This document shows, piece by piece, positions 3,051 to 45,340 of a stretch of DNA of 64,000 nt (position 1 is the first letter of the stretch; every line of letters begins with the position of its first letter). Made by a program: the position numbers and the translations under genes. A model generated the notes under the pieces. The model worked only from the letters and a program-made list of their open reading frames with translations, searched no databases and was not told the origin of the DNA. The stretch comes from Ectobius pallidus (taxonomy: Eukaryota; Arthropoda; Insecta; Blattodea; Ectobiidae), in contig CAXKWD010000011.1 of the NCBI GenBank assembly GCA_964059195.1, positions 12,928,451 through 12,992,450 of the forward strand, in the 5' to 3' direction.

Positions 3051-3772
3051 GGGCTGTGTTCACCAACACGGATAAAATTTCTCGCTATCGTCGATAATAA
3101 AAACTACGATTAATCCATTATATTAAATAGCAAACCTTTCGGGTTTCACCACATAGTTTGTCACCTGGTTTTCGAAAGCTTGGTTTTTGTCTGCTACTTG
3201 TCTGACCCTTAATTTTTTCATAAAAGAACGGACGTCATCTGGCGGCGGTCGTGTGAAACAGCGGGGAGAAGACTGTCTATTGGCTACGTCCGGACGTGAA
3301 ATGTAAACCTTGCCATAGCAACGGAAAGTTTCCCCTCACGCTGTCTCTAGCTAGTAGTTCTACAAATGGTCACTAGATGTCTCACTATTTTGGGGGCGTG
3401 GCGTATAGCAGATAATTTCGTTTTTCCCTTGAATCTTGTGCGGAAATTAATGTCGTCATAAATGTCTAAGTACGGCATGCGTTCCTTTATCTATTAGGGT
3501 GCCTTATTCTGTGTTCTGCTTCATATTCCTCGTCGCTGTGATCATCTCTCATGTTGATCAGATGTTACAATTGCCTACGCGCCATCTTAATGTCGCAATT
3601 ATCTTGGTTTATCCTGTTTTGCCGGCTGATATTTCACCGGTAAAGCATTAGCTTGGATATTATCGAAAAACCAAGTTACTGTAGTTGGTGAAACGCAAAA
3701 TGGGGAATATAGCAGCTTTTCAGTCTAAAAACCAGGATCAGACAGATTATCGGCATTGGTGAACACAGCCCC
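3051..3772. mobile_element. Non-autonomous DNA transposon with GGGCTGTGTTCACCAA ends
   Basis: The left end GGGCTGTGTTCACCAA matches the reverse complement of the right end (GGGGCTGTGTTCACCAA, ending near 3772). The flanks are TTA on the left and TA within CTAG on the right. This fits a TA or degraded TTA target duplication, as in Tc1/mariner or PIF/Harbinger elements. No transposase frame is present. The superfamily is unresolved. Confidence 0.65.
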
Positions 3773-7094: not shown

Positions 7095-7100
7095 AAACTT
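7095..7100. repeat. Left target-site duplication AAACTT
   Basis: Exact 6-bp direct match to 23169-23174, immediately outside the first AG of the element. Six-bp duplications are characteristic of Polinton/Maverick integration. Confidence 0.85.
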
Positions 7101-7162
7101 AGTAGTGGTGTTTTCTGTGTAACCCCTGCGGTGGCGCACTGAATGCAACCCGCAATACAGGG

Positions 7163-7253
7163 GCCGCCACCGTGTATTGCAGGGGCAATACAAGGTGGCG
7201 GCGTAGGGGAAGGTGGCGCGTAGGGGAAGGTGGCGCGTAGGGGAAGGTGGTGT
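7163..7253 (+). repeat. Subterminal hairpin and 17-bp minisatellite, left arm
   Basis: 7163-7180 and 7185-7202 can form an 18-bp GC-rich stem with one mismatch and a 4-base loop. Three tandem 17-bp units (GTAGGGGAAGGTGGCGC) follow at 7203-7253; the last is altered at its end. Such structure next to a terminus could act in replication or end recognition. That role is inference. Confidence 0.7.
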
Positions 7254-7317
7254 CCTCAACTACCGGCCCCCCAGGTCAGCCAGTCCCCCACCCACTGCCC
7301 TTTGGTCACCTGGGTGC

Positions 7318-7640
7318 TAGCATGCTTATTGATCATAGCTCTGGATGCTAGCGCCACAACGGCCTAAGTGTTTAATTATTGGTAATATTGTTAATATTGG
7401 TATTTATTAGCTTGCGCCCTTATTGAACATAGCTCTTAAGTCAATCTGGGTGCTAGCGCCCTTTGCTCCGCCTGTGTGTGTAGAACAAAGGCCTAAGTGT
7501 TTAATTATTGGTAATATTGGTAATATTGGTAATTATGAGCTTGCGCCCTTATTGAACATAGTTCTTTAATCCATCTGGGTGCTAGCGCCCTTTGCTCCGC
7601 CTGTGTGTGTAGAACAAAGGCCTAAGTGTTTAATTAATGG
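7318..7640 (+). repeat. 129-bp tandem repeat array, left arm
   Basis: The marker GGCCTAAGTGTTTAATT begins at about 7361, 7490 and 7619, a period of 129 bp. Each unit also holds a GCTAGCGCC block and short 'ggtaatatt' repeats. The first unit is partial. The array lies between the terminus and the polymerase promoter. Confidence 0.85.
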
Positions 7641-7699
7641 TAATATTTGTGAGTTTGTAATATTATTGCAGGCTTGCGGGTTCCAGACGTGATGCAGCT

Positions 7700-8046
7700 G
7701 CGCGTACTAGAATAGCCCGGCTCACCGCGCGGGAGGTCCCGCATGCACACATGCTGTCTCGCACGGCAGAGCCGCATCTATGCGTACCAGAATAACACAG
7801 TTCGTCACGCGTGGGGCCCAAGCGTACGCGTTGTACTCTAGCGTATGTCAATGTTGCAGTACATGTCATATAATATTATTGTGTTGTCCGGCAGATGTTA
7901 TCCAACAGCCACGCGTCTGAAAATAACCCAGCCTAGCGCAGCAGTGGCCCCCCGCTTGTATACCGACGCCGTACCTACGCGTGGTGACCGTGGTCCCTAG
8001 CGTGAGCCGATATAAATACACATGCTGCAGGCGATTTCGCTCATTC
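7700..8046 (+). promoter_or_regulatory. Promoter of the zinc finger-PolB gene, left arm
   Basis: TATAAATA lies at 8011-8018 and a TCATTC initiator match at 8041-8046, about 30 bp apart, the spacing expected for an arthropod RNA polymerase II core promoter. Upstream are three diverged GC-rich repeats (near 7704, 7792 and 7908), each with an 'agaata(g/a)c' core followed by a G/C-rich tail. They are candidate binding sites. The predicted transcript start excludes the upstream in-frame ATG at 8022 and favours the ATG at 8064. Confidence 0.65.
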
Positions 8047-8063
8047 AACGGATAGCAGCCGAC

Positions 8064-11000
8064 ATGGAAGGTACTACTACTGGATTCTTCAAGTGCTCAG
8101 AGTGCGATGCCAAGTATAGGCATAAACGAGACCTGAACCGGCACGTGAGGCAAAGGCATACACAAAGCCATTTCTCCTGTGTTTCGTGTGGGGCTTCATT
8201 TACCCGTCGCGATGTATTGACCAGACATGTGCGGGAGGCACACTCTAACAGTCAACTAGTCTGTGTTAAATGTGGAAAAAGTTTCTCCTGTCAACGTTAT
8301 CTAAACGACCATTTGGAATCTACCCATAATCCAATGAATCCTAATGAAATGTACAGACAACGTGAAGCCAAGACACCGAGACCTACGTCAATAGTCATCG
8401 AACCCGGGTCACCTGCAGCCGGGCCATCAACAGCCATTGAGCCAAGGACAGCGGTAGCGAGACCACAGACCAACCCATCGGTACTAAGCCAGCCTGATGT
8501 GTCCAATGAACCAAGTCCACGGACAGCCAGACAATCAGTGTTGAGAACAGCTTTGGGCGGCCAAGCCATTGATTACTCGGTACGTGTGTTATATATTAAT
8601 GTGTTATATATTAGTGTGTTACTTCCGAGACAACTCGCCTCATAAGTTTTTTTTTTGTTACAGCCTTTCGCCGTGCCAGATGCAAACACGCATCCCATTG
8701 CAGTATCATCTCAGCAAACTGCAGACGGTGGCCAAGGAGTCGCGCCCCATCACATGCCAGATGTTAACGTGCAGACACAAGGATCCATCTCATCGCATGC
8801 GGTGACAGATATCGGCAGCCGTTATAATGTGGGGGGAGCTCTCACCGCTCACGGCAGCCAAGCAGTCTCGCAGTCAGTCAACAGACATGGGGCCGCTACT
8901 CAGTCTGATGTGAGTAGCTTACTACAATCACATGTTTTTTTACGCTAATGTTTACATGGTTTTTCTATATGTTATGCTAATGTATACATTGTATTAATTC
9001 TTACAGAATGATTTTCGCAAAGTGGACTCAGCCTTCAGATCGAGAATCGCTACATATGCAGCAACCAATATCCCGCAAGGGGACCTGGAGAGCGGCCTAG
9101 CAGCCTACAAACCCAAGATGGAGGCACTGGTGAGGGACTCTATCCAACAATTTAAGTCTGTAAAATTCAATATTTTTGTGGAATGTGGTTTTGAGAACTT
9201 GGAAGGAAAATCCACTCTACGTAATTTCAAATCAAAAAACGAGGTAGCTGTTGTAACGACCAACCTATCAGAACTGTTAGATAAACAAATAGAGAAAATT
9301 CAACAGGAATATCAAGACGTAGCCTTACGAGGGTCTGGGTTCATGTTCAAATCCATACATAAAATCGAATTACGCGTCAACCATTATAAACCTTTTACAG
9401 GTAGGAAATTCATGCTCCTACCCGAACGTTTTAGGCATTCAAAATCTCTAGTGAACATTGACAATCATGACGATTATTGTTTCAAGTACTGCATCTTGGC
9501 GAAATTTATAGAGGTAGGTAATGACTTATGGCCTAGCTATCTCGGGAACCAAGAATTATCTGACAGATACGACTGGAGCTGTGTAAAATTCCCGGTAGCA
9601 TTACAAGACATTGGTAAATTTTCTAAATTAAATAACATATCGATCAATGTGTTTGGTTTAGATGACAATGCGGAAGTATACCCAATCAAAATTGCTGATA
9701 AGGAGTTGGACGACCATAGAGACTTGCTCTATGTCTGCGATGAAGCAAATTCACATTATGTCTTAATTTCTGATTTCAACGCATTCATTAGGCCTTTTGT
9801 CACATCGGACAAGCGTCAAGTCAAAGTATGCAAACGATGTTTTACGCACTTCCAGTCGTATAAAGGTGAGTCAGCCGACCAGAGACTTGAGGCTCATTTG
9901 GCTGTATGTAATTCGTTCTCACCCGTCAGGTGTGAATTTCCTAAACGTCTGGAAGTAAGTTTCACTAAGCATGAGTATTCGCAGAAGATTAGGTTTGTGA
10001 TCTATGCGGATTTTGAGTGCTTATTGGAGCCTATTGCCGGATGTCAAAATGAACCTACAAAATCCTGGACTCAAAAGTATCAAAAACATACACCTTTCAG
10101 TTACGCCTATTTTATTAAGGACTTGGAAGGCGAACATTCAAATCTGCGGCTATACAGAGGACCCGAGGCAGGAGCCCATTTTATGAGTTCTCTTGTAAAA
10201 GACGTAAAGTCCATAGATGCCATTTTAAACTGTGAAATAAAACCCATGATCCCTCTCACGGCAGAACAGAACAACCAGTATATGACCAGCACCATCTGCC
10301 ATATCTGTAAACAAGGTAACTTCACCGAAGAAAATTACAAAGTCCGTGACCACTGCCACGTGAGCGGTCGGTTCAGAGGTGCAGCACACAGAAACTGTAA
10401 CCTAAATTATAGGAACCAGTCTTTTGTCCCTGTTGTGCTACACAACCTGTCCAACTATGACTCACACTTCATTGTGACAGAGTTAGGTTTTGACAAGAAC
10501 CGTATCAATGCCATTTGCAATACCCAGGAGAAATACGTGACATTTTCTAAATTTATTCCCTCCTCTTATTTGAAGCGGGGAGGTATGGAACTAAGATTTA
10601 TAGATTCGTTTCGATTCATGGCCAGTAGCCTGGAGAAGCTAGCGGACAATCTTCCCAAGCAGAAATTTATAGAAACCAGAAATTCGTTTGGTGACAAAAC
10701 CGATTTGGTAAGTCGCAAGGGAGTCTTCCCCTACGACTATGTGTCGTCCTACGAAGTTCTAGATGAGGCAAAATTACCGCCTAAAGAGGCGTTTTACAAC
10801 AAACTCAGCAATGCGGGTGTTTCAGATCGAGACTACTCTCATGCTGTCAATGTGTGGCAATCATTTTCGGTCAACTCATTAGGAGAATATTCAGACCTAT
10901 ATTTAAAAACAGATGTTCTGATTTTGACCGATGTTTTCGAGAATTTTAGGCAAATGTGCCATGATACCTATGGGCTAGATTGCCTTTATTACAGTACTGC

Positions 11001-12447
11001 TCCTGGGTTCGCTTATGCGGCCATGTTAAAGTTCACAGAGGTAAAATTACAGCTGTTGAACGATATGGACATGATTCAGATGTTTGAACGTGGGATAAGA
11101 GGTGGTATTTGTCAGTGTGTAACGAGACACGCTGTGGCAAATATCCCTTGTTCCACCGACTACGATGCCTCAAAGTCGAGCTCTCACCTTTACTACGTCG
11201 ACGCCAATAACCTTTATGGTTACGCTATGTCTCAAGCGTTGCCTACTGGTAATTTTCGTTGGCTCGAGAAAGATGAGATAGCGTCTTTTCACGTCATGTC
11301 CATACCGACCAATTCTAAATTGGGATATGTCCTTGAGGTAGACATTGAGTATCCGGATCACCTCCACGACGCTCATACTGATCTGCCCTTCTGTGCAGAA
11401 ATGAAGTGTCCTCCGGGTAGTAAAAACAAAAAGCTTTTGACAACTCTTGAAACTAAACAAAATTATGTCATTCACTATACCGTGCTTAAACAGGCGTTGC
11501 AACACGGACTGAAATTGACAAAGATCCATAGGGTCATCAGTTTTGAGCAAAGCTGCTGGCTTAAACCGTATATTGAGTTCAATACGTCTAAACGGAGGGC
11601 TGCAGCCAACAACTTTGAAAAAGACTTTTTTAAACTGATGAATAACGCAGTTTTTGGCAAGACAATGGAAAACGTGCGAAAGAGGATAGATTTTAGGCTG
11701 GTGTCTGATGAAAAGTCAATGTCTAAACTGATAGCTAAAAGCAGCTTTCAGGATAGAACCATCTATAACGAAAACCTTGTAGGTGTTCACCTTGCTAAGA
11801 CTAAACTCGTTTTGGATAAAGCCATCTATGTCGGCATGTCCATTTTGGAAATTTCAAAAACAAGGATGTACGACTTTCACTACGACACCATGCGAAAGTA
11901 TTTCGAAAACAAAATTAAGCTCACATATATGGATACTGATAGCTTCATATACAAGATCGAATCCAACAATCTAGACCGTGATTTGTTAAATTTGAGAGAT
12001 GAACTGGATACTAGCGTCTACCCACCCGAACATCCCTTGTATTCATTGGAAAACAAAGGAGTGGTCGGTAAATTCAAGGACGAAGGTGCTGGTCATACTA
12101 TAACTGAGTTTGTAGGCCTGCGAGCAAAAATGTACGCCATAAGGTTTAACGATATGAACATAAAGAAATTGAAAGGTATTAATAAATGTGTTGTAGAGAG
12201 AGAGCTCTCATTTGAAGATTATGTCGGTTGTCTTCAGAGCGGGCAATCGTCATTCTCGGTAAACAGGTCTATACGATCCTATAATCATAACGTATTTTCG
12301 ATCGCCATGAATAAAGTAACCTTAAGCGCTTCAGATGATAAGCGGCACATTTTACCTAATGGCGTAGATACTCTTGCTCACGGGCATTACAAAATCAGGG
12401 ATGCTGATGTTGATGAGGGACCCCCAGCTAAAAGATGTAAAGTGTAA
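8064..12447 (+). CDS. C2H2 zinc finger-family B DNA polymerase fusion, left arm
   Basis: Three exons are predicted: 8064-8579, 8664-8909 and 9007-12447. Donors are GTACGT (8580) and GTGAGT (8910); acceptors are TTACAG after T-rich tracts. Both introns (84 and 97 bp) are phase 0, and the joined frame is open for about 1,400 aa. The long third exon has no ATG at its start, which supports splicing. Residues 8-88 hold three C2H2 fingers (Cys11/Cys14/His27/His32, then Cys39, Cys67). A Pro/Ser/Gln-rich linker runs to about 254. A possible papain-like Cys412/His504/Asp510 set is followed by a CxxC zinc motif near 530. Exo I YADFE (Asp589), Exo II NYDSHF, Exo III YLKTD, motif A VDANNLYG (Asp986), motif B KLMNNAVFG (about 1130) and motif C YMDTDS (Asp1230) are all present. 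An HNH/zinc-like insert (CHICK, RDHCH) lies at about 684-724. This is the protein-primed PolB class, expected to copy linear DNA from a terminal protein. It looks catalytically intact. Confidence 0.85.
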
Positions 12448-12739
12448 AAATGTATATATTGTCAGAGTCTTGTATGTAGATAAAAATGTATTATGCTATA
12501 TGTCTTGTGTGTGTAAATAAAAATGAAATATGCTATGTGTCTTGTGTGTCTTGTGTATGTTGTGTATTATGCTATGTGTTGTAAGGCAAAGGAAAGGAAA
12601 AAAAATGAATTATGCTGTATGTTGTAAGGTAAAGGAATGGAAATAAAAACACATGACTATACTTGAGTCTTTAATGAAGTAAAAAAATACAAGTGTTCCT
12701 TCCTCCTCCTGCTCCACCACTCCACTGTTAAGACTCTGT
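12448..12739. terminator. Convergent 3' end region with poly(A) signals, left arm
   Basis: AATAAA occurs at 12516-12521 and 12642-12647 downstream of the polymerase stop. ATTAAA on the opposite strand (12670-12675) lies about 65 bp past the stop of the convergent acidic frame. 'Ttgtgtg' and 'gctatgtgt' repeats between them fit GU-rich downstream elements. Confidence 0.55.
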
Positions 12740-13021
12740 TCATTCTATATAATTTCTATCCCTCAATTCCAATATGATTTCATGTATTTCCTTGTGGTGA
12801 TGTAGTGTGGCAGCAGACGAGGACATGAGAAGCTTTAGTCTGTCAACGAGCTGGTTGGGGTCGAAGTCTATTTTGTGATTCGCATGTAAGTCCTTCCACA
12901 TGCCTCCACGGTGTGACAAAACCTCATCGGAGGAGTCCTCCTCTTCCGAAAATGAGTTTGAATATTGTTCCTCCTCTTCTTCTTCCAGAAATAATTTTTT
13001 ATTAACATGACCAAAGACGTT
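12740..13021 (-). CDS. Acidic open exon, unknown function, left arm
   Basis: A 93-codon open frame ends in TGA at 12740-12742 and has no ATG near its upstream edge (the first in-frame ATG leaves only 53 codons). It is therefore probably the 3' exon of a spliced gene. It begins with a run of six Glu (after KKLFL), then a Ser/Glu/Asp-rich stretch, then a probable amphipathic helix region containing DPNQLVDRLKLLM and ending in RDRNYIE. I do not recognise the family. It is convergent with the polymerase gene. An ATG in good context (GCCGCCATG, next to the MITE) lies upstream but its frame closes after 10 codons. The upstream exon was not found. Confidence 0.45.
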   Translation of the reverse strand, partial: NVFGHVNKKLFLEEEEEEQYSNSFSEEEDSSDEVLSHRGGMWKDLHANHKIDFDPNQLVDRLKLLMSSSAATLHHHKEIHEIILELRDRNYIE

Positions 13022-13105
13022 CTATATATCTACCTAGACTTACAATAGGCGACGCAGCAGTGGCTAAAATTGAACAACTCGCGCATCCTCTAACATGGCG
13101 GCATG

Positions 13106-13495
13106 CAGTGTTGCCAACGTCAAAGAAATTTCTCTAGATTTAGAGAAATCTTGCTTCTTTTAAAGAATTTCGCCCCACATCTACAGAAAAATTTAATTTA
13201 CTCTTTTCCATAGATAATTAATAAAGATAAAGCGGAAATTCGGACAAAAAATAAAATGCAGAGCGAGAGAGCAGTCTACAACAATTTAAATGTTCTGTGC
13301 TGTACTACCCATGCTATCATCGGATGTTTATTGCATGCAGTTAACTTGAGGTAAGATTCATATTAATAAAATTATTATTAATACTATCGATAAAATATAT
13401 AATTAAAGAATATGACTTTTTAATGCATCAAAGAAATTTAAAGAAAATTTATGGAGTTGTCAAAAAGATTTTAGCTTTTGTGGTTGGCAACACTG
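13106..13495. mobile_element. hAT-like MITE inside the left arm
   Basis: Ends CAGTGTTGCCAAC and GTTGGCAACACTG are inverted repeats. The exact 8-bp duplication GCGGCATG flanks them at 13098-13105 and 13496-13503. The CAGTG start and 8-bp duplication are hAT features. It has no coding capacity. The same insertion occurs at the mirror position in the other arm. Confidence 0.85.
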
Positions 13496-13753
13496 GCGGC
13501 ATGTGTTATTCTTCTGACACGTGAGAATGTAAATAGTGAGATATTTTAAATATTAAAAACTAAATGTAAGCTTAGAATTACAGTGTTTGTGTTCATTTTA
13601 GTATTGTGTGCTATTTAGTAATTGCATGAAGTGTAGTGAGCTATAATATGGTTATTATTGCGGATACATTTCAATATTGTAGGCCACGTGTGTTGGTTAG
13701 AATTTATATTTTCGACCCGTGTTTTTTATAGTGTTCCTGGGATTACTAGAAAT

Positions 13754-13824
13754 ATGGTGCGTTCTTGTGCAGCATACAACTGCACAAATCGTCAGAAGAA
13801 GGATTCGGGGATTTCTTTCCACAA
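13754..13824 (+). CDS. THAP-domain first exon, probably truncated gene, left arm
   Basis: An ATG opens MVRSCAAYNCTNRQ...GISFHK, which is the canonical start of a THAP (C2CH) DNA-binding domain: two Cys five residues apart and the SFH motif. A strong donor GTAAGT follows at 13825. The nearest acceptor (TTTCAG ending 13965) continues for about 16 codons and stops, without the second zinc pair. A second short frame starts at 14014 and reaches a GTAATT donor-like site. Either the rest of the domain is lost or later exons were not recognised. THAP proteins include P-element-type transposases and transcription factors. Confidence 0.5.
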
Positions 13825-14290
13825 GTAAGTAATATAGCCTAGTTGTATTATAGGTTAGGAGCAGTGTTGTATTTTGGAATGGATTGCACAACTGTAATTT
13901 TTCATAGTAATGTACTATATTATACTATACTAAATTAATTGTATTAATTTAATCACATATTTCAGGACCCGAAGGGCTATGTTTAAAGATTACAACTTAC
14001 ATTATTCACTAAAATGACTGAGAAAAATGACTTACTGGGAATGTCAACACAGGCCTATGATGTTGTGTTATTGCGTCCACATGAGATAAATGCAGGTAAT
14101 TATGTTTAGTTCTTACACTTATTTATAGCGATATTACTCTTAACTCATGTTTAATTAATTTTTTTCATTATTTATGAAATTAAATACCGGTAGGTTTATG
14201 TTTCCTTTTACGTTTAACAGCTGTATGTTGTCTGCTATGATTTTGTGCCTCAAAGATGGCGGCGAGCGACCACTTCTATTTGGAGCCATT

Positions 14291-14815
14291 TCACGCCGTC
14301 TGCGCAGCTGGTGGTGTGGGGACTTGAACATGACACGTATTGATGGGGTCAGCCTGCTGATGAGTGTTCGTATCCGAGAGAAGATATCGATTGGAGATGA
14401 ATTTCTGTCTGTCTTGACAAATTGGGCACTTGGATAAATAAAGAGAAATCATAGCCTTTGTAACGTTTGCAAATTTTCTGGATAGTTCATTATACATTTT
14501 ATCGCGACCACCATGTCCTATTGCCGCATGAGCGGTATCAATAACGTCGTATATGTCATCAACCGAAAGGTAATATTTTCTATCGTTTTTTGCAACAAGT
14601 TTCCTAATTCCTCCTATTTCTACCACATCAAATCTTTTCAATCTTCTTTTTTGTGTAGCCGTCTTCTTTTGTGATTCTTTAGCAGTATCTACCTCCCGCA
14701 TGAGTGATAAGTAATTTTCCTTTGTTAGAACCTTAAAACGAGTAGATTTTTCACTCTCAGTTCTTAAAAGCTCCCCCACGAAACTCTCTCTCGCCTTTTT
14801 ACAACTCTCATCCAT
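14291..14815 (-). CDS. Integrase-type H2C2 zinc-binding protein lacking DDE core, left arm
   Basis: The 174-aa frame starts at an ATG in the context GATATCATGG. It has a Lys/Arg-rich N-terminal half (LKRFDVVEIGGIRKLVAK region). A zinc-binding motif follows: two His in AHAAIGHGGRDKM, then Cys-x2-Cys in KCPICQ about 30 residues later. This H2C2 unit precedes the catalytic core in Polinton, Ginger and retroviral-type integrases and in KRBA2-like host proteins. The frame ends about 30 residues after the zinc motif, where the rve/DDE core should begin. No such core occurs downstream in any frame. It may be a remnant, a DNA-binding regulator or a dominant-negative form. Transcription points outward from the hinge. 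Confidence 0.7.
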   Translation of the reverse strand: MDESCKKARESFVGELLRTESEKSTRFKVLTKENYLSLMREVDTAKESQKKTATQKRRLKRFDVVEIGGIRKLVAKNDRKYYLSVDDIYDVIDTAHAAIGHGGRDKMYNELSRKFANVTKAMISLYLSKCPICQDRQKFISNRYLLSDTNTHQQADPINTCHVQVPTPPAAQTA

Positions 14816-14905
14816 GATATCGTGAAACGTAGAATGATACCCAGGGATGATGACTTTACTCTACGCCGGTCTATTCTGGACTGGTGTAAAACTTGTCTGG
14901 GCTCA

Positions 14906-14915
14906 CTTATTTATA
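14906..14915 (-). promoter_or_regulatory. TATA box, outward toward left integrase-like gene
   Basis: Mirror of 15354-15363; reads TATAAATAAG on the minus strand, 91 bp before the start codon at 14815. Confidence 0.55.
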
Positions 14916-14960
14916 GGTAAAATTAATCTGGACCGGTTAATATGAGTCTGTAGCTGGTCC

Positions 14961-15020
14961 AGATCGATCTTGACCAGTCAAGATCGATCTTGACCGGTCA
15001 AGATCGATCTTGACTGGTCA
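14961..15020 (+). repeat. 20-bp iterons at the hinge, three copies
   Basis: Three exact-length 20-bp units (AGATCGATCTTGACCRGTCA, third with TGACTGGTCA) sit in tandem between the left 94-bp units. The mirror position 15289-15308 has only one. The two extra units account for the whole 40-bp length difference between the arms. Confidence 0.9.
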
Positions 15021-15353
15021 CTACTGTTTAACAGTTTCGCTACGCCGGTCTATTCTGGACTGGTGTAAAACTTGTCTGGGCTCACTTATTTATAGGTAAA
15101 ATTAATCTGGACCGGTTAATATGAGTCTGTAGCCGGTCAATATCGATCTTGACTGGTCAATATCGATATTGACCGGCTACAGACTCATATTAACCGGTCC
15201 AGATTAATTTTACCTATAAATAAGTGAGCCCAGACAAGTTTTACACCAGTCCAGAATAGACCGGCGTAGCGAAACTGTTAAACAGTAGTGACCAGTCAAG
15301 ATCGATCTGGACCAGCTACAGACTCATATTAACCGGTCCAGATTAATTTTACC

Positions 15354-15363
15354 TATAAATAAG
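15354..15363 (+). promoter_or_regulatory. TATA box, outward toward right integrase-like gene
   Basis: TATAAATAAG in the outer right 94-bp unit, 100 bp before the ATG at 15454. The same TATAAATA core is used upstream of the polymerase gene. A weak initiator (CCAGTC) lies about 32 bp downstream. The inner unit carries a second copy at 15215-15224. Confidence 0.55.
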
Positions 15364-15453
15364 TGAGCCCAGACAAGTTTTACACCAGTCCAGAATAGAC
15401 CGGCGTAGAGTAAAGTCATCATCCCTGGGTATCATTCTACGTTTCACGATATC

Positions 15454-15978
15454 ATGGATGAGAGTTGTAAAAAGGCGAGAGAGAGTTTCGTGGGGGAGCT
15501 TTTAAGAACTGAGAGTGAAAAATCTACTCGTTTTAAGGTTCTAACAAAGGAAAATTACTTATCACTCATGCGGGAGGTAGATACTGCTAAAGAATCACAA
15601 AAGAAGACGGCTACACAAAAAAGAAGATTGAAAAGATTTGATGTGGTAGAAATAGGAGGAATTAGGAAACTTGTTGCAAAAAACGATAGAAAATATTACC
15701 TTTCGGTTGATGACATATACGACGTTATTGATACCGCTCATGCGGCAATAGGACATGGTGGTCGCGATAAAATGTATAATGAACTATCCAGAAAATTTGC
15801 AAACGTTACAAAGGCTATGATTTCTCTTTATTTATCCAAGTGCCCAATTTGTCAAGACAGACAGAAATTCATCTCCAATCGATATCTTCTCTCGGATACG
15901 AACACTCATCAGCAGGCTGACCCCATCAATACGTGTCATGTTCAAGTCCCCACACCACCAGCTGCGCAGACGGCGTGA
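15454..15978 (+). CDS. Integrase-type H2C2 zinc-binding protein lacking DDE core, right arm
   Basis: Identical 174-aa protein to the left-arm copy, starting 100 bp after a TATAAATAAG box in the hinge repeat (15354). The His-x4-His and Cys-x2-Cys zinc ligands are intact in both copies while the catalytic core is missing from both. The truncation therefore predates the palindrome or happened at its formation. The two genes are divergent from the shared hinge. Confidence 0.7.
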   Translation: MDESCKKARESFVGELLRTESEKSTRFKVLTKENYLSLMREVDTAKESQKKTATQKRRLKRFDVVEIGGIRKLVAKNDRKYYLSVDDIYDVIDTAHAAIGHGGRDKMYNELSRKFANVTKAMISLYLSKCPICQDRQKFISNRYLLSDTNTHQQADPINTCHVQVPTPPAAQTA

Positions 15979-16444
15979 AATGGCTCCAAATAGAAGTGGT
16001 CGCTCGCCGCCATCTTTGAGGCACAAAATCATAGCAGACAACATACAGCTGTTAAACGTAAAAGGAAACATAAACCTACCGGTATTTAATTTCATAAATA
16101 ATGAAAAAAATTAATTAAACATGAGTTAAGAGTAATATCGCTATAAATAAGTGTAAGAACTAAACATAATTACCTGCATTTATCTCATGTGGACGCAATA
16201 ACACAACATCATAGGCCTGTGTTGACATTCCCAGTAAGTCATTTTTCTCAGTCATTTTAGTGAATAATGTAAGTTGTAATCTTTAAACATAGCCCTTCGG
16301 GTCCTGAAATATGTGATTAAATTAATACAATTAATTTAGTATAGTATAATATAGTACATTACTATGAAAAATTACAGTTGTGCAATCCATTCCAAAATAC
16401 AACACTGCTCCTAACCTATAATACAACTAGGCTATATTACTTAC

Positions 16445-16515
16445 TTGTGGAAAGAAATCCCCGAATCCTTCTTCTGACGATTTGTGCAGTTGTATGCTGC
16501 ACAAGAACGCACCAT
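16445..16515 (-). CDS. THAP-domain first exon, probably truncated gene, right arm
   Basis: Mirror of 13754-13824 with the same start, donor and absence of the distal zinc ligands. Confidence 0.5.
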
Positions 16516-16773
16516 ATTTCTAGTAATCCCAGGAACACTATAAAAAACACGGGTCGAAAATATAAATTCTAACCAACACACGTGGCCTACAATATTGAAA
16601 TGTATCCGCAATAATAACCATATTATAGCTCACTACACTTCATGCAATTACTAAATAGCACACAATACTAAAATGAACACAAACACTGTAATTCTAAGCT
16701 TACATTTAGTTTTTAATATTTAAAATATCTCACTATTTACATTCTCACGTGTCAGAAGAATAACACATGCCGC

Positions 16774-17163
16774 CAGTGTTGCCAACCACAAAAGCTAAAA
16801 TCTTTTTGACAACTCCATAAATTTTCTTTAAATTTCTTTGATGCATTAAAAAGTCATATTCTTTAATTATATATTTTATCGATAGTATTAATAATAATTT
16901 TATTAATATGAATCTTACCTCAAGTTAACTGCATGCAATAAACATCCGATGATAGCATGGGTAGTACAGCACAGAACATTTAAATTGTTGTAGACTGCTC
17001 TCTCGCTCTGCATTTTATTTTTTGTCCGAATTTCCGCTTTATCTTTATTAATTATCTATGGAAAAGAGTAAATTAAATTTTTCTGTAGATGTGGGGCGAA
17101 ATTCTTTAAAAGAAGCAAGATTTCTCTAAATCTAGAGAAATTTCTTTGACGTTGGCAACACTG
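16774..17163. mobile_element. hAT-like MITE inside the right arm
   Basis: Mirror copy of the 390-bp MITE at 13106-13495 with the same flanking 8-bp duplication. Two independent insertions at the same base are implausible, so the arm was copied after this insertion. Confidence 0.85.
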
Positions 17164-17247
17164 CATGCCGCCATGTTAGAGGATGCGCGAGTTGTTCAAT
17201 TTTAGCCACTGCTGCGTCGCCTATTGTAAGTCTAGGTAGATATATAG

Positions 17248-17529
17248 AACGTCTTTGGTCATGTTAATAAAAAATTATTTCTGGAAGAAGAAGAGGAGGA
17301 ACAATATTCAAACTCATTTTCGGAAGAGGAGGACTCCTCCGATGAGGTTTTGTCACACCGTGGAGGCATGTGGAAGGACTTACATGCGAATCACAAAATA
17401 GACTTCGACCCCAACCAGCTCGTTGACAGACTAAAGCTTCTCATGTCCTCGTCTGCTGCCACACTACATCACCACAAGGAAATACATGAAATCATATTGG
17501 AATTGAGGGATAGAAATTATATAGAATGA
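17248..17529 (+). CDS. Acidic open exon, unknown function, right arm
   Basis: Mirror of 12740-13021 with the same 93-codon frame and the same absence of a start. It lies between the internal MITE and the polymerase 3' end. Probably a 3' exon; function unknown. Confidence 0.45.
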   Translation, partial: NVFGHVNKKLFLEEEEEEQYSNSFSEEEDSSDEVLSHRGGMWKDLHANHKIDFDPNQLVDRLKLLMSSSAATLHHHKEIHEIILELRDRNYIE

Positions 17530-17821
17530 ACAGAGTCTTAACAGTGGAGTGGTGGAGCAGGAGGAGGAAGGAACACTTGTATTTTTTTACTTCATTAAAG
17601 ACTCAAGTATAGTCATGTGTTTTTATTTCCATTCCTTTACCTTACAACATACAGCATAATTCATTTTTTTTCCTTTCCTTTGCCTTACAACACATAGCAT
17701 AATACACAACATACACAAGACACACAAGACACATAGCATATTTCATTTTTATTTACACACACAAGACATATAGCATAATACATTTTTATCTACATACAAG
17801 ACTCTGACAATATATACATTT
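17530..17821. terminator. Convergent 3' end region with poly(A) signals, right arm
   Basis: Mirror of 12448-12739, with the same AATAAA and ATTAAA signals. Confidence 0.55.
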
Positions 17822-20800
17822 TTACACTTTACATCTTTTAGCTGGGGGTCCCTCATCAACATCAGCATCCCTGATTTTGTAATGCCCGTGAGCAAGAGTA
17901 TCTACGCCATTAGGTAAAATGTGCCGCTTATCATCTGAAGCGCTTAAGGTTACTTTATTCATGGCGATCGAAAATACGTTATGATTATAGGATCGTATAG
18001 ACCTGTTTACCGAGAATGACGATTGCCCGCTCTGAAGACAACCGACATAATCTTCAAATGAGAGCTCTCTCTCTACAACACATTTATTAATACCTTTCAA
18101 TTTCTTTATGTTCATATCGTTAAACCTTATGGCGTACATTTTTGCTCGCAGGCCTACAAACTCAGTTATAGTATGACCAGCACCTTCGTCCTTGAATTTA
18201 CCGACCACTCCTTTGTTTTCCAATGAATACAAGGGATGTTCGGGTGGGTAGACGCTAGTATCCAGTTCATCTCTCAAATTTAACAAATCACGGTCTAGAT
18301 TGTTGGATTCGATCTTGTATATGAAGCTATCAGTATCCATATATGTGAGCTTAATTTTGTTTTCGAAATACTTTCGCATGGTGTCGTAGTGAAAGTCGTA
18401 CATCCTTGTTTTTGAAATTTCCAAAATGGACATGCCGACATAGATGGCTTTATCCAAAACGAGTTTAGTCTTAGCAAGGTGAACACCTACAAGGTTTTCG
18501 TTATAGATGGTTCTATCCTGAAAGCTGCTTTTAGCTATCAGTTTAGACATTGACTTTTCATCAGACACCAGCCTAAAATCTATCCTCTTTCGCACGTTTT
18601 CCATTGTCTTGCCAAAAACTGCGTTATTCATCAGTTTAAAAAAGTCTTTTTCAAAGTTGTTGGCTGCAGCCCTCCGTTTAGACGTATTGAACTCAATATA
18701 CGGTTTAAGCCAGCAGCTTTGCTCAAAACTGATGACCCTATGGATCTTTGTCAATTTCAGTCCGTGTTGCAACGCCTGTTTAAGCACGGTATAGTGAATG
18801 ACATAATTTTGTTTAGTTTCAAGAGTTGTCAAAAGCTTTTTGTTTTTACTACCCGGAGGACACTTCATTTCTGCACAGAAGGGCAGATCAGTATGAGCGT
18901 CGTGGAGGTGATCCGGATACTCAATGTCTACCTCAAGGACATATCCCAATTTAGAATTGGTCGGTATGGACATGACGTGAAAAGACGCTATCTCATCTTT
19001 CTCGAGCCAACGAAAATTACCAGTAGGCAACGCTTGAGACATAGCGTAACCATAAAGGTTATTGGCGTCGACGTAGTAAAGGTGAGAGCTCGACTTTGAG
19101 GCATCGTAGTCGGTGGAACAAGGGATATTTGCCACAGCGTGTCTCGTTACACACTGACAAATACCACCTCTTATCCCACGTTCAAACATCTGAATCATGT
19201 CCATATCGTTCAACAGCTGTAATTTTACCTCTGTGAACTTTAACATGGCCGCATAAGCGAACCCAGGAGCAGTACTGTAATAAAGGCAATCTAGCCCATA
19301 GGTATCATGGCACATTTGCCTAAAATTCTCGAAAACATCGGTCAAAATCAGAACATCTGTTTTTAAATATAGGTCTGAATATTCTCCTAATGAGTTGACC
19401 GAAAATGATTGCCACACATTGACAGCATGAGAGTAGTCTCGATCTGAAACACCCGCATTGCTGAGTTTGTTGTAAAACGCCTCTTTAGGCGGTAATTTTG
19501 CCTCATCTAGAACTTCGTAGGACGACACATAGTCGTAGGGGAAGACTCCCTTGCGACTTACCAAATCGGTTTTGTCACCAAACGAATTTCTGGTTTCTAT
19601 AAATTTCTGCTTGGGAAGATTGTCCGCTAGCTTCTCCAGGCTACTGGCCATGAATCGAAACGAATCTATAAATCTTAGTTCCATACCTCCCCGCTTCAAA
19701 TAAGAGGAGGGAATAAATTTAGAAAATGTCACGTATTTCTCCTGGGTATTGCAAATGGCATTGATACGGTTCTTGTCAAAACCTAACTCTGTCACAATGA
19801 AGTGTGAGTCATAGTTGGACAGGTTGTGTAGCACAACAGGGACAAAAGACTGGTTCCTATAATTTAGGTTACAGTTTCTGTGTGCTGCACCTCTGAACCG
19901 ACCGCTCACGTGGCAGTGGTCACGGACTTTGTAATTTTCTTCGGTGAAGTTACCTTGTTTACAGATATGGCAGATGGTGCTGGTCATATACTGGTTGTTC
20001 TGTTCTGCCGTGAGAGGGATCATGGGTTTTATTTCACAGTTTAAAATGGCATCTATGGACTTTACGTCTTTTACAAGAGAACTCATAAAATGGGCTCCTG
20101 CCTCGGGTCCTCTGTATAGCCGCAGATTTGAATGTTCGCCTTCCAAGTCCTTAATAAAATAGGCGTAACTGAAAGGTGTATGTTTTTGATACTTTTGAGT
20201 CCAGGATTTTGTAGGTTCATTTTGACATCCGGCAATAGGCTCCAATAAGCACTCAAAATCCGCATAGATCACAAACCTAATCTTCTGCGAATACTCATGC
20301 TTAGTGAAACTTACTTCCAGACGTTTAGGAAATTCACACCTGACGGGTGAGAACGAATTACATACAGCCAAATGAGCCTCAAGTCTCTGGTCGGCTGACT
20401 CACCTTTATACGACTGGAAGTGCGTAAAACATCGTTTGCATACTTTGACTTGACGCTTGTCCGATGTGACAAAAGGCCTAATGAATGCGTTGAAATCAGA
20501 AATTAAGACATAATGTGAATTTACTTCATCGCAGACATAGAGCAAGTCTCTATGGTCGTCCAACTCCTTATCAGCAATTTTGATTGGGTATACTTCCGCA
20601 TTGTCATCTAAACCAAACACATTGATCGATATGTTATTTAATTTAGAAAATTTACCAATGTCTTGTAATGCTACCGGGAATTTTACACAGCTCCAGTCGT
20701 ATCTGTCAGATAATTCTTGGTTCCCGAGATAGCTAGGCCATAAGTCATTACCTACCTCTATAAATTTCGCCAAGATGCAGTACTTGAAACAATAATCGTC

Positions 20801-22205
20801 ATGATTGTCAATGTTCACTAGAGATTTTGAATGCCTAAAACGTTCGGGTAGGAGCATGAATTTCCTACCTGTAAAAGGTTTATAATGGTTGACGCGTAAT
20901 TCGATTTTATGTATGGATTTGAACATGAACCCAGACCCTCGTAAGGCTACGTCTTGATATTCCTGTTGAATTTTCTCTATTTGTTTATCTAACAGTTCTG
21001 ATAGGTTGGTCGTTACAACAGCTACCTCGTTTTTTGATTTGAAATTACGTAGAGTGGATTTTCCTTCCAAGTTCTCAAAACCACATTCCACAAAAATATT
21101 GAATTTTACAGACTTAAATTGTTGGATAGAGTCCCTCACCAGTGCCTCCATCTTGGGTTTGTAGGCTGCTAGGCCGCTCTCCAGGTCCCCTTGCGGGATA
21201 TTGGTTGCTGCATATGTAGCGATTCTCGATCTGAAGGCTGAGTCCACTTTGCGAAAATCATTCTGTAAGAATTAATACAATGTATACATTAGCATAACAT
21301 ATAGAAAAACCATGTAAACATTAGCGTAAAAAAACATGTGATTGTAGTAAGCTACTCACATCAGACTGAGTAGCGGCCCCATGTCTGTTGACTGACTGCG
21401 AGACTGCTTGGCTGCCGTGAGCGGTGAGAGCTCCCCCCACATTATAACGGCTGCCGATATCTGTCACCGCATGCGATGAGATGGATCCTTGTGTCTGCAC
21501 GTTAACATCTGGCATGTGATGGGGCGCGACTCCTTGGCCACCGTCTGCAGTTTGCTGAGATGATACTGCAATGGGATGCGTGTTTGCATCTGGCACGGCG
21601 AAAGGCTGTAACAAAAAAAAAACTTATGAGGCGAGTTGTCTCGGAAGTAACACACTAATATATAACACATTAATATATAACACACGTACCGAGTAATCAA
21701 TGGCTTGGCCGCCCAAAGCTGTTCTCAACACTGATTGTCTGGCTGTCCGTGGACTTGGTTCATTGGACACATCAGGCTGGCTTAGTACCGATGGGTTGGT
21801 CTGTGGTCTCGCTACCGCTGTCCTTGGCTCAATGGCTGTTGATGGCCCGGCTGCAGGTGACCCGGGTTCGATGACTATTGACGTAGGTCTCGGTGTCTTG
21901 GCTTCACGTTGTCTGTACATTTCATTAGGATTCATTGGATTATGGGTAGATTCCAAATGGTCGTTTAGATAACGTTGACAGGAGAAACTTTTTCCACATT
22001 TAACACAGACTAGTTGACTGTTAGAGTGTGCCTCCCGCACATGTCTGGTCAATACATCGCGACGGGTAAATGAAGCCCCACACGAAACACAGGAGAAATG
22101 GCTTTGTGTATGCCTTTGCCTCATGTGCCGGTTCAGGTCTCGTTTATGCCTATACTTGGCATCGCACTCTGAGCACTTGAAGAATCCAGTAGTAGTACCT
22201 TCCAT
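17822..22205 (-). CDS. C2H2 zinc finger-family B DNA polymerase fusion, right arm
   Basis: Mirror copy with exons at 21690-22205, 21360-21605 and 17822-21262 on the minus strand and identical splice sites. It is intact end to end. It differs from the left copy by two confirmed amino acids: residue 28 is Met instead of Val (between the two zinc-binding His of finger 1), and residue 501 is Val instead of Ala (three residues before the candidate His504). No stop or frameshift occurs in either copy, so decay has not begun or the arms are being homogenised. Function, motifs and domain order are as in the left copy. Confidence 0.85.
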
Positions 22206-22222
22206 GTCGGCTGCTATCCGTT

Positions 22223-22569
22223 GAATGAGCGAAATCGCCTGCAGCATGTGTATTTATATCGGCTCACGCTAGGGACCACGGTCACCACGCGTAGGTACGG
22301 CGTCGGTATACAAGCGGGGGGCCACTCCTGCGCTAGGCTGGGTTATTTTCAGACGCGTGGCTGTTGGATAACATCTGCCGGACAACACAATAATATTATA
22401 TGACATGTACTGCAACATTGACATACGCTAGAGTACAACGCGTACGCTTGGGCCCCACGCGTGACGAACTGTGTTATTCTGGTACGCATAGATGCGGCTC
22501 TGCCGTGCGAGACAGCATGTGTGCATGCGGGACCTCCCGCGCGGTGAGCCGGGCTATTCTAGTACGCGC
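22223..22569 (-). promoter_or_regulatory. Promoter of the zinc finger-PolB gene, right arm
   Basis: Mirror of the left promoter: TATA box at 22251-22258 and initiator at 22223-22228. It differs by one base (22327) in the third GC-rich upstream repeat. Confidence 0.65.
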
Positions 22570-22628
22570 AGCTGCATCACGTCTGGAACCCGCAAGCCTG
22601 CAATAATATTACAAACTCACAAATATTA

Positions 22629-22951
22629 CCATTAATTAAACACTTAGGCCTTTGTTCTACACACACAGGCGGAGCAAAGGGCGCTAGCACCCAGATGGAT
22701 TAAAGAACTATGTTCAATAAGGGCGCAAGCTCATAATTACCAATATTACCAATATTACCAATAATTAAACACTTAGGCCTTTGTTCTACACACACAGGCG
22801 GAGCAAAGGGCGCTAGCACCCAGATTGACTTAAGAGCTATGTTCAATAAGGGCGCAAGCTAATAAATACCAATATTAACAATATTACCAATAATTAAACA
22901 CTTAGGCCGTTGTGGCGCTAGCATCCAGAGCTATGATCAATAAGCATGCTA
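22629..22951 (-). repeat. 129-bp tandem repeat array, right arm
   Basis: Mirror of the left-arm array with the same unit count and spacing. Confidence 0.85.
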
Positions 22952-23015
22952 GCACCCAGGTGACCAAAGGGCAGTGGGTGGGGGACTGGCTGACCTGGGG
23001 GGCCGGTAGTTGAGG

Positions 23016-23106
23016 ACACCACCTTCCCCTACGCGCCACCTTCCCCTACGCGCCACCTTCCCCTACGCCGCCACCTTGTATTGCCCCTGCAATACACGGT
23101 GGCGGC
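23016..23106 (-). repeat. Subterminal hairpin and 17-bp minisatellite, right arm
   Basis: Mirror copy of 7163-7253, with the same stem and the same three 17-bp units. No copy-number difference between arms. Confidence 0.7.
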
Positions 23107-23168
23107 CCCTGTATTGCGGGTTGCATTCAGTGCGCCACCGCAGGGGTTACACAGAAAACACCACTACT

Positions 23169-23174
23169 AAACTT
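23169..23174. repeat. Right target-site duplication AAACTT
   Basis: Matches 7095-7100 exactly and directly follows the terminal CT of the element. Confidence 0.85.
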
Positions 23175-32240: not shown

Positions 32241-32674
32241 AGAATGAGAAATTGTAAGGAATTTTTTAGCCTAAGCCCTCAATAAAAGGATTAAACAACT
32301 AATGAAGCGAGATACCATGTAGTATTAAATAAACTAGAATATTATATTAGGAAAATTGGAATGAAATATCAATCAGCGTATCACTATATAGTCAAGAAAT
32401 AATTCAGAGAGTTAGGTTAATAAGTTAATAAGTTAACGTTTAAATGAAATCAAACATTTTTGTATTTAAAATATTATGTGCCATTTGGTTTTTCTAACCT
32501 AACTCTCTTTAATCATTTCTTGACTATATAGTAATACGCTGATTCATATTTCATTCCAATTTTCCTAATATAATATTCTAGTTTATTTAATACAACATGG
32601 TCTCTCGCTTCATTAGTTGTTTAATCTTTTTATTGAGGTTTTAGGCTAAAAAATTCCTTACAATTTCTCATTCT
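32241..32674. mobile_element. Foldback element
   Basis: The left arm (32241-about 32416) starts AGAATGAGAAATTGTAAGGA and is mirrored by the right arm (about 32495-32674), which ends AATTTCTCATTCT. Arms are about 175 bp, with roughly 78 bp between them, high identity and a few small differences. No target duplication could be fixed. Could also be two head-to-head copies of one repeat. Confidence 0.75.
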
Positions 32675-37499: not shown

Positions 37500-39440
37500 A
37501 AGAGGCGGAAAGATATGGAAAAGGATACAGAGCAAGGCAAAAGAGCGAGTCGACGACAGACAGAAATATCCAGAAAGATTCGATGGGATGACTGTAGAGA
37601 GATCCATGCTGATACAGAGAGGTTGAGGCAGATAGATGACGTAAAGAAAAGACAGGAAAAAGGATACAGAGCCAGGCAAAAGAGCGAGTCGACGACAGAC
37701 AGAAATATCCAGAAAGATTCTAGAGGATGACTGTAGAGAGATCCATGTTGATACAGAGAGGTTGAGGCAGATAGATGACGTAAAGAAAGGACAGGAAAAA
37801 GGATACAGAGCAAGGCAAAAGAGCGAGTCGACGACAGACAGAAATATCCAGAAAGATTCTAGAGGATGACTGTAGAGAGATCCATGTTGATACAGAGAGG
37901 TTGAGGCAGATAGATGACGTAAAGAAAGGACAGGAAAAAGGATACAGAGCAAGGCAAAAGAGCGAGTCGACGACAGACAGAAATATCCAGAAAGATTCGA
38001 GAGGATGACTGTAGAGAGATCCATGTTGATACAGAGAGGTTGAGGCAGATAGATGACGTAAAGAAAGGACAGGAAAAAGGATACAGAGCCAGGCAAAAGA
38101 GCGAGTTGACGACAGACAGAAATATCCAGAAAGATTCTAGAGGATGACTGTAGAGAGATCCCTGTTGATACAGAGAGGTTGAGGCAGATAGATGACGTAA
38201 AGAAAGGACAGGAAAAAGGATACAGAGCAAGGCAAAAGAGCGAGTCGACGACAGACAGAAATATCCAGAAAGATTCTAGAGGATGACTGTAGAGAGATCC
38301 ATGTTGATACAGAGAGGTTGAGGCAGATAGATGACGTAAAGAAAGGACAGGAAAAAGGATACAGAGCAAGGCAAAAGAGCGAGTCGACGACAGACAGAAA
38401 TATCCAGAAAGATTCGAGAGGATGACTGTAGAGAGATCCATGTTGATACAGAGAGGTTGAGGCAGATAGATGACGTAAAGAAAGGACAGGAAAAAGGATA
38501 CAGAGCCAGGCAAAAGAGCGAGTTGACGACAGACAGAAATATCCAGAAAGATTCTAGAGGATGACTGTAGAGAGATCCCTGTTGATACAGAGAGGTTGAG
38601 GCAGATAGATGACGTAAAGAAAGGACAGGAAAAAGGATACAGAGCAAGGCAAAAGAGCGAGTCGACGACAGACAGAAATATCCAGAAAGATTCTAGAGGA
38701 TGACTGTAGAGAGATCCATGTTGATACAGGGAGGTTGAGGCAGATAGATGACGTAAAGAAAGGACAGGAAAAAAGGATACAGAGCAAGGCAAAAGAGCGA
38801 GTCGACGACAGACAGAAATATCCAGAAAGATTCGAGAGGATGACTGTAGAGAGATCCATGTTGATACAGAGAGGTTGAGGCAGATAGATGACGTAAAGAA
38901 AGGACAGGAAAAAGGATACAGAGCAAGGCAAAAGAGCGAGTCGACGACAGACAGAAATATCCAGAAAGATTCTAGAGGATGACTGTAGAGAGATCCATGT
39001 TGATACAGAGAGGTTGAGGCAGATAGATGACGTAAAGAAAGGACAGGAAAAAGGATACAGAGCCAGGCAAAAGAGCGAGTTGACGACAGACAGAAATATC
39101 CAGAAAGATTCTAGAGGATGACTGTAGAGAGATCCCTGTTGATACAGAGAGGTTGAGGCAGATAGATGACGTAAAGAAAGGACAGGAAAAAGGATACAGA
39201 GCAAGGCAAAAGAGCGAGTCGACGACAGACAGAAATATCCAGAAAGATTCTAGAGGATGACTGTAGAGAGATCCATGTTGATACAGGGAGGTTGAGGCAG
39301 ATAGATGACGTAAAGAAAGGACAGGAAAAAAGGATACAGAGCAAGGCAAAAGAGCGAGTCGACGACAGACAGAAATATCCAGAAAGATTCGAGAGGATGA
39401 CTGTAGAGAGATCCATGTCGATACAGAGAGGTTGAGGCAG
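37500..39440. repeat. 139-bp minisatellite, about 14 units, higher-order period 417-418 bp
   Basis: The unit includes 'gagagatccatgttgataca', 'gttgaggcagatagatga' and 'cgacgacagacagaaat'. Variants (ccatg/ccctg, gccagg/gcaagg, gttgac/gtcgac, ttcgag/ttctag) recur every third unit, giving a 3-unit higher-order period. Because 139 leaves remainder 1 on division by 3 and the unit lacks stops in all three minus-strand frames, long frames (up to 468 codons) arise by chance. I do not call them genes. Confidence 0.9.
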
Positions 39441-39559
39441 ATAGATGGCGTGGAGAAAAGACAGAAAGAGATATGGAGCGAGGCAGAGAACGAGAGGACA
39501 TTAGGCAGAAAGACAGAGGGTGGAAGAAAGAGAGAAGAGAATGGAGAAGCAGAGACAGC

Positions 39560-44309: not shown

Positions 44310-45340
44310 TACTCAATGGCAATAGGAAATTCCTAAGCAAGCTGAAGGACTATTATCTATTTTATGGAACCGGGAGGTTCATTGTCGTGCTTACCAGTAC
44401 CCGCCATTCAACCCTATTCTATGCTAACTCCATCCAACTATCCCTCTCAATTCCTGCTTCCTTTAAATCTATCCTAATATTGTCCTCCCACCTACGTCCA
44501 GGTCTTCCAAGTGATTTTTTCCCTTCGGGTCTCCCGGTAAATTTTGTTTTTAGAAATGTCTTTCCTCCCCCCATGCGCGCAATATGTCCATCCCATTTCA
44601 TCCTCCGTGAATTAATTACCCTTACTGTATCCAGTGACAAGTACAGGTTATGAAGCTCGTCGTTATGCAGTTTTCTCCAGTCCCCATTTTAATCTCTCAT
44701 AGGTTCAAATATTTTCCTAACCCCCCTGTTTTCGAATACTCTCAGATTATGTTTTTCCCGGAGAGTAAGCGACCCTCACATCCGTATAATATTACCGGCA
44801 GGATAATTCTCTTATAAATTTTAGTTGTAGACTTCTGAACAGAAGACGAGAAGATAAGAGTTTCTGAACCGCATAAAAACCGGCATTTCCTAATTTGAGT
44901 CACACTCTACCTTAACATAATTTGTATCACCCAGATATTTGAATTTCTCCACTTGTTCGAACGTTTTAGGCCTTCCAGCTATTCTAATATTTTGTAGGGC
45001 ATTATTTTGATGTTTCATGACCATGTATTTAGTTTTTTCTGTATTAATTTCCAATCCAACATTCCTGCAGGCATCGAAAACACTGCATTTCTCTCGATTG
45101 TGTTTGTCATCGCACAGCAGACAGACGTCATCTGCATAAAGTAAAATCGGGTGACTGCAGTTTAATTCCAGGCCTACATTCTTTTCCTGAACTTTTCTAA
45201 TGGAATATACCAAAGAGAATTTAAAAAGTAAAGGTGATAGTGCATCTCCTTGCTTCAAGCAACTTTCAATGGCAAACCTATCTTATATAAATTTACCTAC
45301 CCTGGCTCTGAGGCCCTGTTAGACTCATTTTGATAAGAAA
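44310..45340 (-). pseudogene. LINE reverse transcriptase and C-terminal region, copy 2
   Basis: Minus-strand frame 44890-45258 contains MKQGDALSPLLF and LLYADDVCLLCDD, the RT palm motifs with the YADD catalytic box, followed by LEINTEKTKYMV and FKYLGD. These are typical of RTE/jockey-like LINE ORF2. The frame 44419-44640 continues with the GRPGRRWEDNIRIDL tail. Frame breaks between them show it is dead. Homologous copies are 6375-7062 and 36810-37300. Confidence 0.8.

Follow-up and report, generated by a model that had tools for sequence, protein, structure and literature searches.

A 64,000-bp stretch of the Ectobius pallidus genome (contig CAXKWD010000011.1, positions 12,928,451 to 12,992,450; hereafter the window) carries a Polinton-derived element at positions 7101-23168 that forms a single palindrome of 16,068 bp between two exact 6-bp copies of AAACTT. 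Very probably, this element contains the polymerase-bearing half of a Polinton-family genome twice over, as a result of fold-back self-priming in a hairpin-forming 20-bp repeat. The observations that lead us to this view are its non-palindromic relatives, the point at which the window departs from them, a mirrored transposon, the 6-bp duplication, the recurrence of such palindromes, and the presence of one class of them at six loci. The defining features are as follows.

7095..7100, no strand: left target site duplication, AAACTT
7101..15154, plus strand: left arm, 8,054 bp, starting AGTAGT
15155..23168, minus strand: right arm, 8,014 bp, mirror of the left arm, ending ACTACT
23169..23174, no strand: right target site duplication, AAACTT
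14956..15015, plus strand: three near-self-complementary 20-bp units (right arm: one unit, 15294-15313)
15135..15174, no strand: hinge of two 20-bp units, with the axis at 15154/15155, parental sequence at 15155-15167 and copied sequence from 15168
13012..14326, plus strand: 1,315-bp multicopy transposon in the left arm, with an 8-bp duplication, AACATGAC, at 13004-13011 and 14327-14334
15943..17257, minus strand: mirror copy of this transposon at the same site

The element begins with AGTAGTGG and ends with CCACTACT, giving the motif AGTAGT//ACTACT, or (AGT)2//(ACT)2, of Maverick/Polinton type. From the base composition of the rest of the window, the chance of the 6-bp AAACTT match is ~4e-4. 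The two flanks are unlike each other and mirror symmetry ends at the element termini, so the palindrome is no fold-back of the flanking chromosome; two extra matching bases past the termini (TT/AA) belong to AAACTT itself, which starts with AA and ends with TT. Aligned over their full length, the arms differ by a single 40-bp gap, made up of two 20-bp units at 14961-15000, and by five mismatches, at 7942, 8145, 9746, 15148/15161 and the axis pair 15154/15155, the last two falling within the innermost 20 bp. The gap reflects the three 20-bp units of the left arm and the single one of the right, and accounts for the 40-bp difference in arm length. The entire element is an inverted repeat. The original prediction of AG/CT ends, an exact duplication, arms of 8,054 and 8,014 bp and no unique centre is borne out by this alignment, and the "perfect register" it claimed holds except for the change in unit number near the hinge. 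A candidate empty site, sought among repeats of the window, was rejected: the flank repeat at 44727-45337 ends short of the site.

We compared the window with related copies in its 2.12-Gb source genome, using the first kilobase of PolB as query. Of 718 candidates, 40 were scored, yielding 8 inverted pairs and 24 singles; these counts, like those of a right-half search described below (40 scored in each), are lower bounds, and all copies are known from assembled sequence alone. No inverted repeat longer than 150 bp was found in any of the 13 singles fetched (10 kb each). Terminal-repeat matches pair 13.3-14.8 kb apart at seven loci of these or related copies (C1, C3, C6, C8, C9, C10 and C12). 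Such ordinary full copies have unlike halves, matching terminal repeats at both ends, and 6-bp duplications of their own, exact in all five copies with both ends compared (CGCTAC, TACGAC, ATCCCT, CACTCC and GCGGGG). L072 was left out of the comparison, because the matching left end falls outside L042.

Nine of the 13 relatives read ...GGTCAATATCGATCTTGACT GGTCAATATCGAT CTGGGG... at the hinge, with one shortened and three variant. The window matches these nine exactly across the axis to 15167, and from there continues as the reverse complement of its own arm. The 13 nt past the axis are parental, 11 of them pair with the 13 nt preceding it, and the two unpaired positions are the two innermost arm mismatches. 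The local hairpin has a predicted energy of -13.8 kcal/mol (DNA parameters) and a 4-nt loop. Judged against the relatives, the turn at 15168 after a 13-nt self-pairing stretch reads as the trace of a folded-back, self-primed 3′ end. The terminal 7-mer AGTAGTG recurs near the hinge in mirror orientation (15019-15025 and 15284-15290) and is short enough for chance. We also considered an internally deleted monomer with its right terminus at the hinge, an idea that had rested on the integrase fragment beside the hinge and CACTACT within it; this was rejected, as relatives place the hinge mid-element.

The 1,315-bp transposon is missing from all 20 other fetched copies, whose sequence passes directly from window position 13011 to 14327 (to 14338 in L051), and the site without it was read in three relatives. 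Because it sits at the same base in both arms, it inserted into one parent copy before the mirror formed and was then mirrored by copy-back. Among 40 scored matches, 21 further ones were full-length. We take positions 13757-13828 to resemble a THAP first exon with splice donor, and a P-like source is possible; Pfam gave no match to this THAP-like stretch.

Further palindromes in the same genome

A second palindrome class (type II, the window being type I) occurs at six loci, with its hinge 0.5 kb further in, at a different short inverted repeat. From the left arms, fetched for all seven inverted pairs besides the window, these palindromes are spacer-free and ~14 kb long (left arms of 6,986-6,987 bp); the parts tested are fully self-complementary in five of seven, and L035 and L039 have one and two mismatches, respectively. 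Target site duplications flank all five uncomplicated loci (AATTTA, CAGAAC, GCAGAT, ATCACT and TATTAT). The sixth locus, on C12, has CAAGGA at its outer ends and two palindromes inside, the first without ~700 bp of its right end. The stretch before its second palindrome is identical to the C5 left flank (418/418 bases compared), and the C5 stretch has an N run. The C12 double palindrome is either partly misassembled, which is probable, or a composite insertion. The regions concerned are C12 ~40918557-40946523 and C5:184811397-184811914 of G000 (L032, L033, L034 and L037).

In relatives, the type II hinge reads AATTTGC, 53 nt, GCAAATT, and the two heptamers pair at 7/7 bases in four of 13 copies, 6/7 in seven (including L046) and 5/7 in two. 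The type II centre consists of the left sequence, the loop reversed, the loop, and the left sequence reversed; both switches fall at the AATTTGC/GCAAATT repeat, with CATG at the axis. Among the 13 relatives, the copy nearest to the window arm is at C3:196.98 Mb (98.95%) and that nearest to the type II arm at C2:99.8 Mb (98.9%), so the two palindromes stem from different sublineages.

Palindromes of the other half are also present. A right-half search, with 40 matches scored, identified three pairs and 34 singles. The pair on C7 is a palindrome of 15,704 bp with the same ends and the duplication CATAGC; its outer arm stretches (697 and 1,090 bp compared) are 100% mirror-identical, and its hinge 98.6% with gaps. 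Two more pairs lie on C10, of which one was examined: it is 100% mirror-identical over 1,544 bp, its axis falls midway along a 20-bp unit, and its outer ends were not placed. The right halves of C7 and C10 match the C1 copy at 97% and 94%, respectively, and their axes differ, so we count them as separate classes. Palindrome birth is recurrent, not one-off: there are four hinge classes, both halves are represented, and three of the four hinge in or beside the 20-bp array.

Derived changes in L035 and L039, polarised against the 13 relatives, bear on inheritance. At position 5688, where 12 of the 13 relatives carry G and one could not be placed, both loci have a derived change confined to the right arm; a one-arm change common to two loci indicates that the palindrome was copied as a whole unit. 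Position 1428 is derived in both arms of both loci (C in 13/13 relatives), as is an extra A in an A run, and position 3237 is derived in one L035 arm and both L039 arms (T in 11 of 13, two not placed). Changes present in both arms suggest that the arms also copy each other. Since type II palindromes occur at six loci, five with clean and different 6-bp duplications, they seem to spread as palindromes, and the mirror form likely multiplies as a mirror image. We lean, by a small margin, towards viewing palindromic Polintons as a self-propagating genome state, in which births would recur at hairpin-forming hinges in either half, and the left-half product, with two polymerase genes and two identical ends, would move as a palindrome whose arms rewrite each other: a copy-back genome become its own transposon lineage.

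Origin of the palindromes

In the course of events that we favor, a single strand would be displaced during protein-primed, strand-displacing replication by the element's phi29-like polymerase; its end, inside the 20-bp repeat, would fold back, prime itself and copy its own left half. Copying would then turn the hairpin into a duplex whose two proper ends are identical, and this duplex palindrome would be inserted by an rve integrase, presumably supplied in trans because no examined copy shows a full one. For type II, snap-back would produce one switch, and the doubled loop could arise through loop opening and filling, or through joining at the central CATG. Excerpts of published work report strand displacement by an Entamoeba family B polymerase that derives from a transposon (PMC3511435), and inverted chimeras made by phi29 polymerase in whole-genome amplification (PMC1855051).

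This course agrees with the original prediction that one Polinton end was copied into its own mirror, for example by self-priming, as the turn-round relative to the other copies lies in a hairpin-forming repeat. Normal integration after mirroring, also proposed there, fits the exact AAACTT at both flanks. The full Polintons with a distinct second half (13.3-14.8 kb) and the further palindromic copies (type II, C7 and C10) for which it suggested searching are both present in this genome.

Several points weigh against fold-back self-priming. The type II centre has a 52-bp loop in both orientations, which a single simple snap-back does not yield, and L046, the nearest fetched type II relative, has one mismatch in the 7-bp repeat. 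At the window hinge, 4/13 relatives are shortened or variant, and the type I event alone could be repair inside a chromosome. The palindromes are known from chromosomal copies alone, with no molecule seen outside the chromosome; no full integrase was found in any copy examined, and a terminal protein was not identified.

Tail-to-tail joining of two broken molecules, or a broken end closed as a hairpin and replicated, is an unlikely alternative that concerns type II more than the window. Type II palindromes are spacer-free with a self-complementary CATG at the axis and require some such second step, and the axis of the examined C10 palindrome lies inside one 20-bp unit. In the window, however, the innermost arms are not fully identical and the relatives' sequence crosses the axis by 13 nt, neither of which a blunt join would give.

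Somewhat less probable again is conversion in place, whereby a break destroys the right half of a resident full Polinton and repair from the right terminal repeat copies the left half inward to an internal inverted repeat, so that the palindrome is never mobile. Full copies do carry terminal repeats that match between their two ends, and near-self-complementary units are arrayed inside them; later exchange between arms is evident in the type II copies L035 and L039, where arm position 1428 is derived in both arms. This leaves the single type II hinge at six loci unexplained, however, and the departure at 15168 following 13 nt of self-pairing looks like a snap-back trace.

Palindromes are classic artefacts, whether from fold-back of a read or contig or from in vitro phi29 chimeras, and with the two C12 palindromes separated by C5 left-flank sequence and an N run in C5, one of these two loci is probably misassembled. 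As a general explanation this is nonetheless highly improbable, given two unlike flanks with an exact duplication, symmetry that stops at the element ends, the same hinge at six loci, five arm differences, and a one-arm mutation common to two loci. Least credible, by a hair, is an ordinary Polinton with unusually long terminal inverted repeats: the arms formally are such repeats, but no unique middle remains, relatives in the same genome have unlike halves, and repeats of intact vertebrate Mavericks span only 46-1,447 bp in an excerpt of PMC8097293.

Genes carried by the arms

The arms contain the following open reading frames (ORFs) and repeats.

9022..12447, plus strand: PolB ORF, 1141 aa, with a phi29-like predicted fold
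17822..21247, minus strand: second PolB ORF, mirror copy
8022..8645, plus strand: C2H2 zinc-finger ORF (mirror 21624-22247), read as a possible exon from a fused C2H2 and PolB relative, P0023
14327..14860, minus strand: N-terminal integrase fragment with an H2C2 zinc-binding domain, no rve core found (mirror 15409-15942)
7356..7647, plus strand: tandem repeats of 129 bp in the terminal part of the left arm, mirrored at 22622-22913

The PolB frame is open in both arms, and its predicted fold is nearest to the protein-primed phi29 DNA polymerase. Homology and this fold indicate a phi29-like family B polymerase, whose protein priming and activity are putative. It is 44% identical to the protein named PolB of a Ladona dragonfly adintovirus (P0017). 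Coding differences between the arms are PolB A242V and C2H2 V42M. A splice-acceptor-like TTCTTACAG within 8646-9002 precedes the PolB ORF, so the C2H2 ORF may serve the polymerase gene as an upstream exon. Across all seven type II left arms the longest open stretch measures 1,135 codons; it measures 1,135-1,149 codons in nine of 13 single copies and 628-1,053 in the other four.

Six-frame searches for an rve match found none, either in the arm outside PolB or in one right half (L059). With only the H2C2 fragment, we consider this a defective Polinton-derived element and not a complete Polinton. As a query, the integrase fragment found one short relative; within a longer frame, it found two longer relatives, one with H2C2 and rve. 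Besides PolB, the arm has no ORF of at least 210 aa, and packaging ATPase, protease and capsid genes were not found in it. The right halves of the full copies L059 and L077 have no ORF above 135 aa, and L059 (six frames) has no Pfam match. Spread of this element family may thus not require capsid genes. Several long ORFs occur in each of the viral relatives, L001 and L002, and one in L001 matches the ATPase family Pox_A32.

Other searches gave little. Hpy99I, the sole PDB sequence match of the PolB profile, led nowhere, and NCBIfam and Rfam gave no match. IMG/VR gave none with the window PolB as query, the same two contigs both times with alignments as query, and 20 stretches with the exact terminus 17-mer, which we treated as chance. 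Elsewhere in the window lie a 139-bp tandem satellite array (37519-39485, ~14 copies, 97% alike) and a 434-bp stretch (32241-32674) with 87% identity to its own reverse complement, which is a different kind of fold-back element.

Comparison with known systems

Copy-back defective virus genomes, among them the inverted left-end duplications of adenovirus, are familiar chiefly as a by-product of viral replication. Like them, the element keeps one end twice as a mirror, probably made by strand self-priming, and the relatives and hinges identify it as a mirror duplication of one end of a parent genome. It differs in being integrated with target duplications, and type II occurs at several loci. Polinton-line copy-back forms are here fixed in a genome alongside relatives, hinges and descendants, making birth, integration and spread traceable base by base. 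To our knowledge, the displaced single-strand stage of the Polinton life cycle has never been directly observed, and these palindromes offer indirect evidence for it. No title among the literature matches listed describes palindromic Polintons.

Giant palindromes also grow from short inverted repeats, as in Tetrahymena rDNA and amplified oncogenes. The hinge is likewise set by a short inverted repeat, but those palindromes are not mobile elements with their own ends and integration. Here, spacer-free 14-kb palindromes are shown at several loci, and arm differences could act as a clock for the rate of palindrome homogenisation.

With Polintons/Mavericks, the element shares (AGT)2//(ACT)2 ends, the commonest end motif of vertebrate Mavericks in an excerpt of PMC8097293, as well as a phi29-like PolB, a length of 16 kb within the 12.7-24.6 kb given there for intact copies, and 6-bp target duplications (in the window, 5/5 uncomplicated type II loci, C7 and 5/5 full copies compared). 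In contrast, its halves are identical in sequence, with arms of 8 kb, where that excerpt gives no repeat above 1,447 bp; it lacks distinct genes between terminal repeats and an rve core beyond the integrase fragment, and no capsid, ATPase or protease gene was found in it. Adintoviruses, defined in an excerpt of PMC11071296 by a hexon gene and a distinctive PolB, are similar in the 44% PolB identity to the Ladona protein, whereas the element is palindromic and its arm has no room for a hexon ORF. Finally, in phi29 amplification chimeras, inverted sequence arises when a displaced 3′ end primes on a complementary stretch of 2-21 nt nearby, as an excerpt of PMC1855051 describes; those chimeras are an in vitro artefact, whereas the Polinton palindrome is an inherited element.

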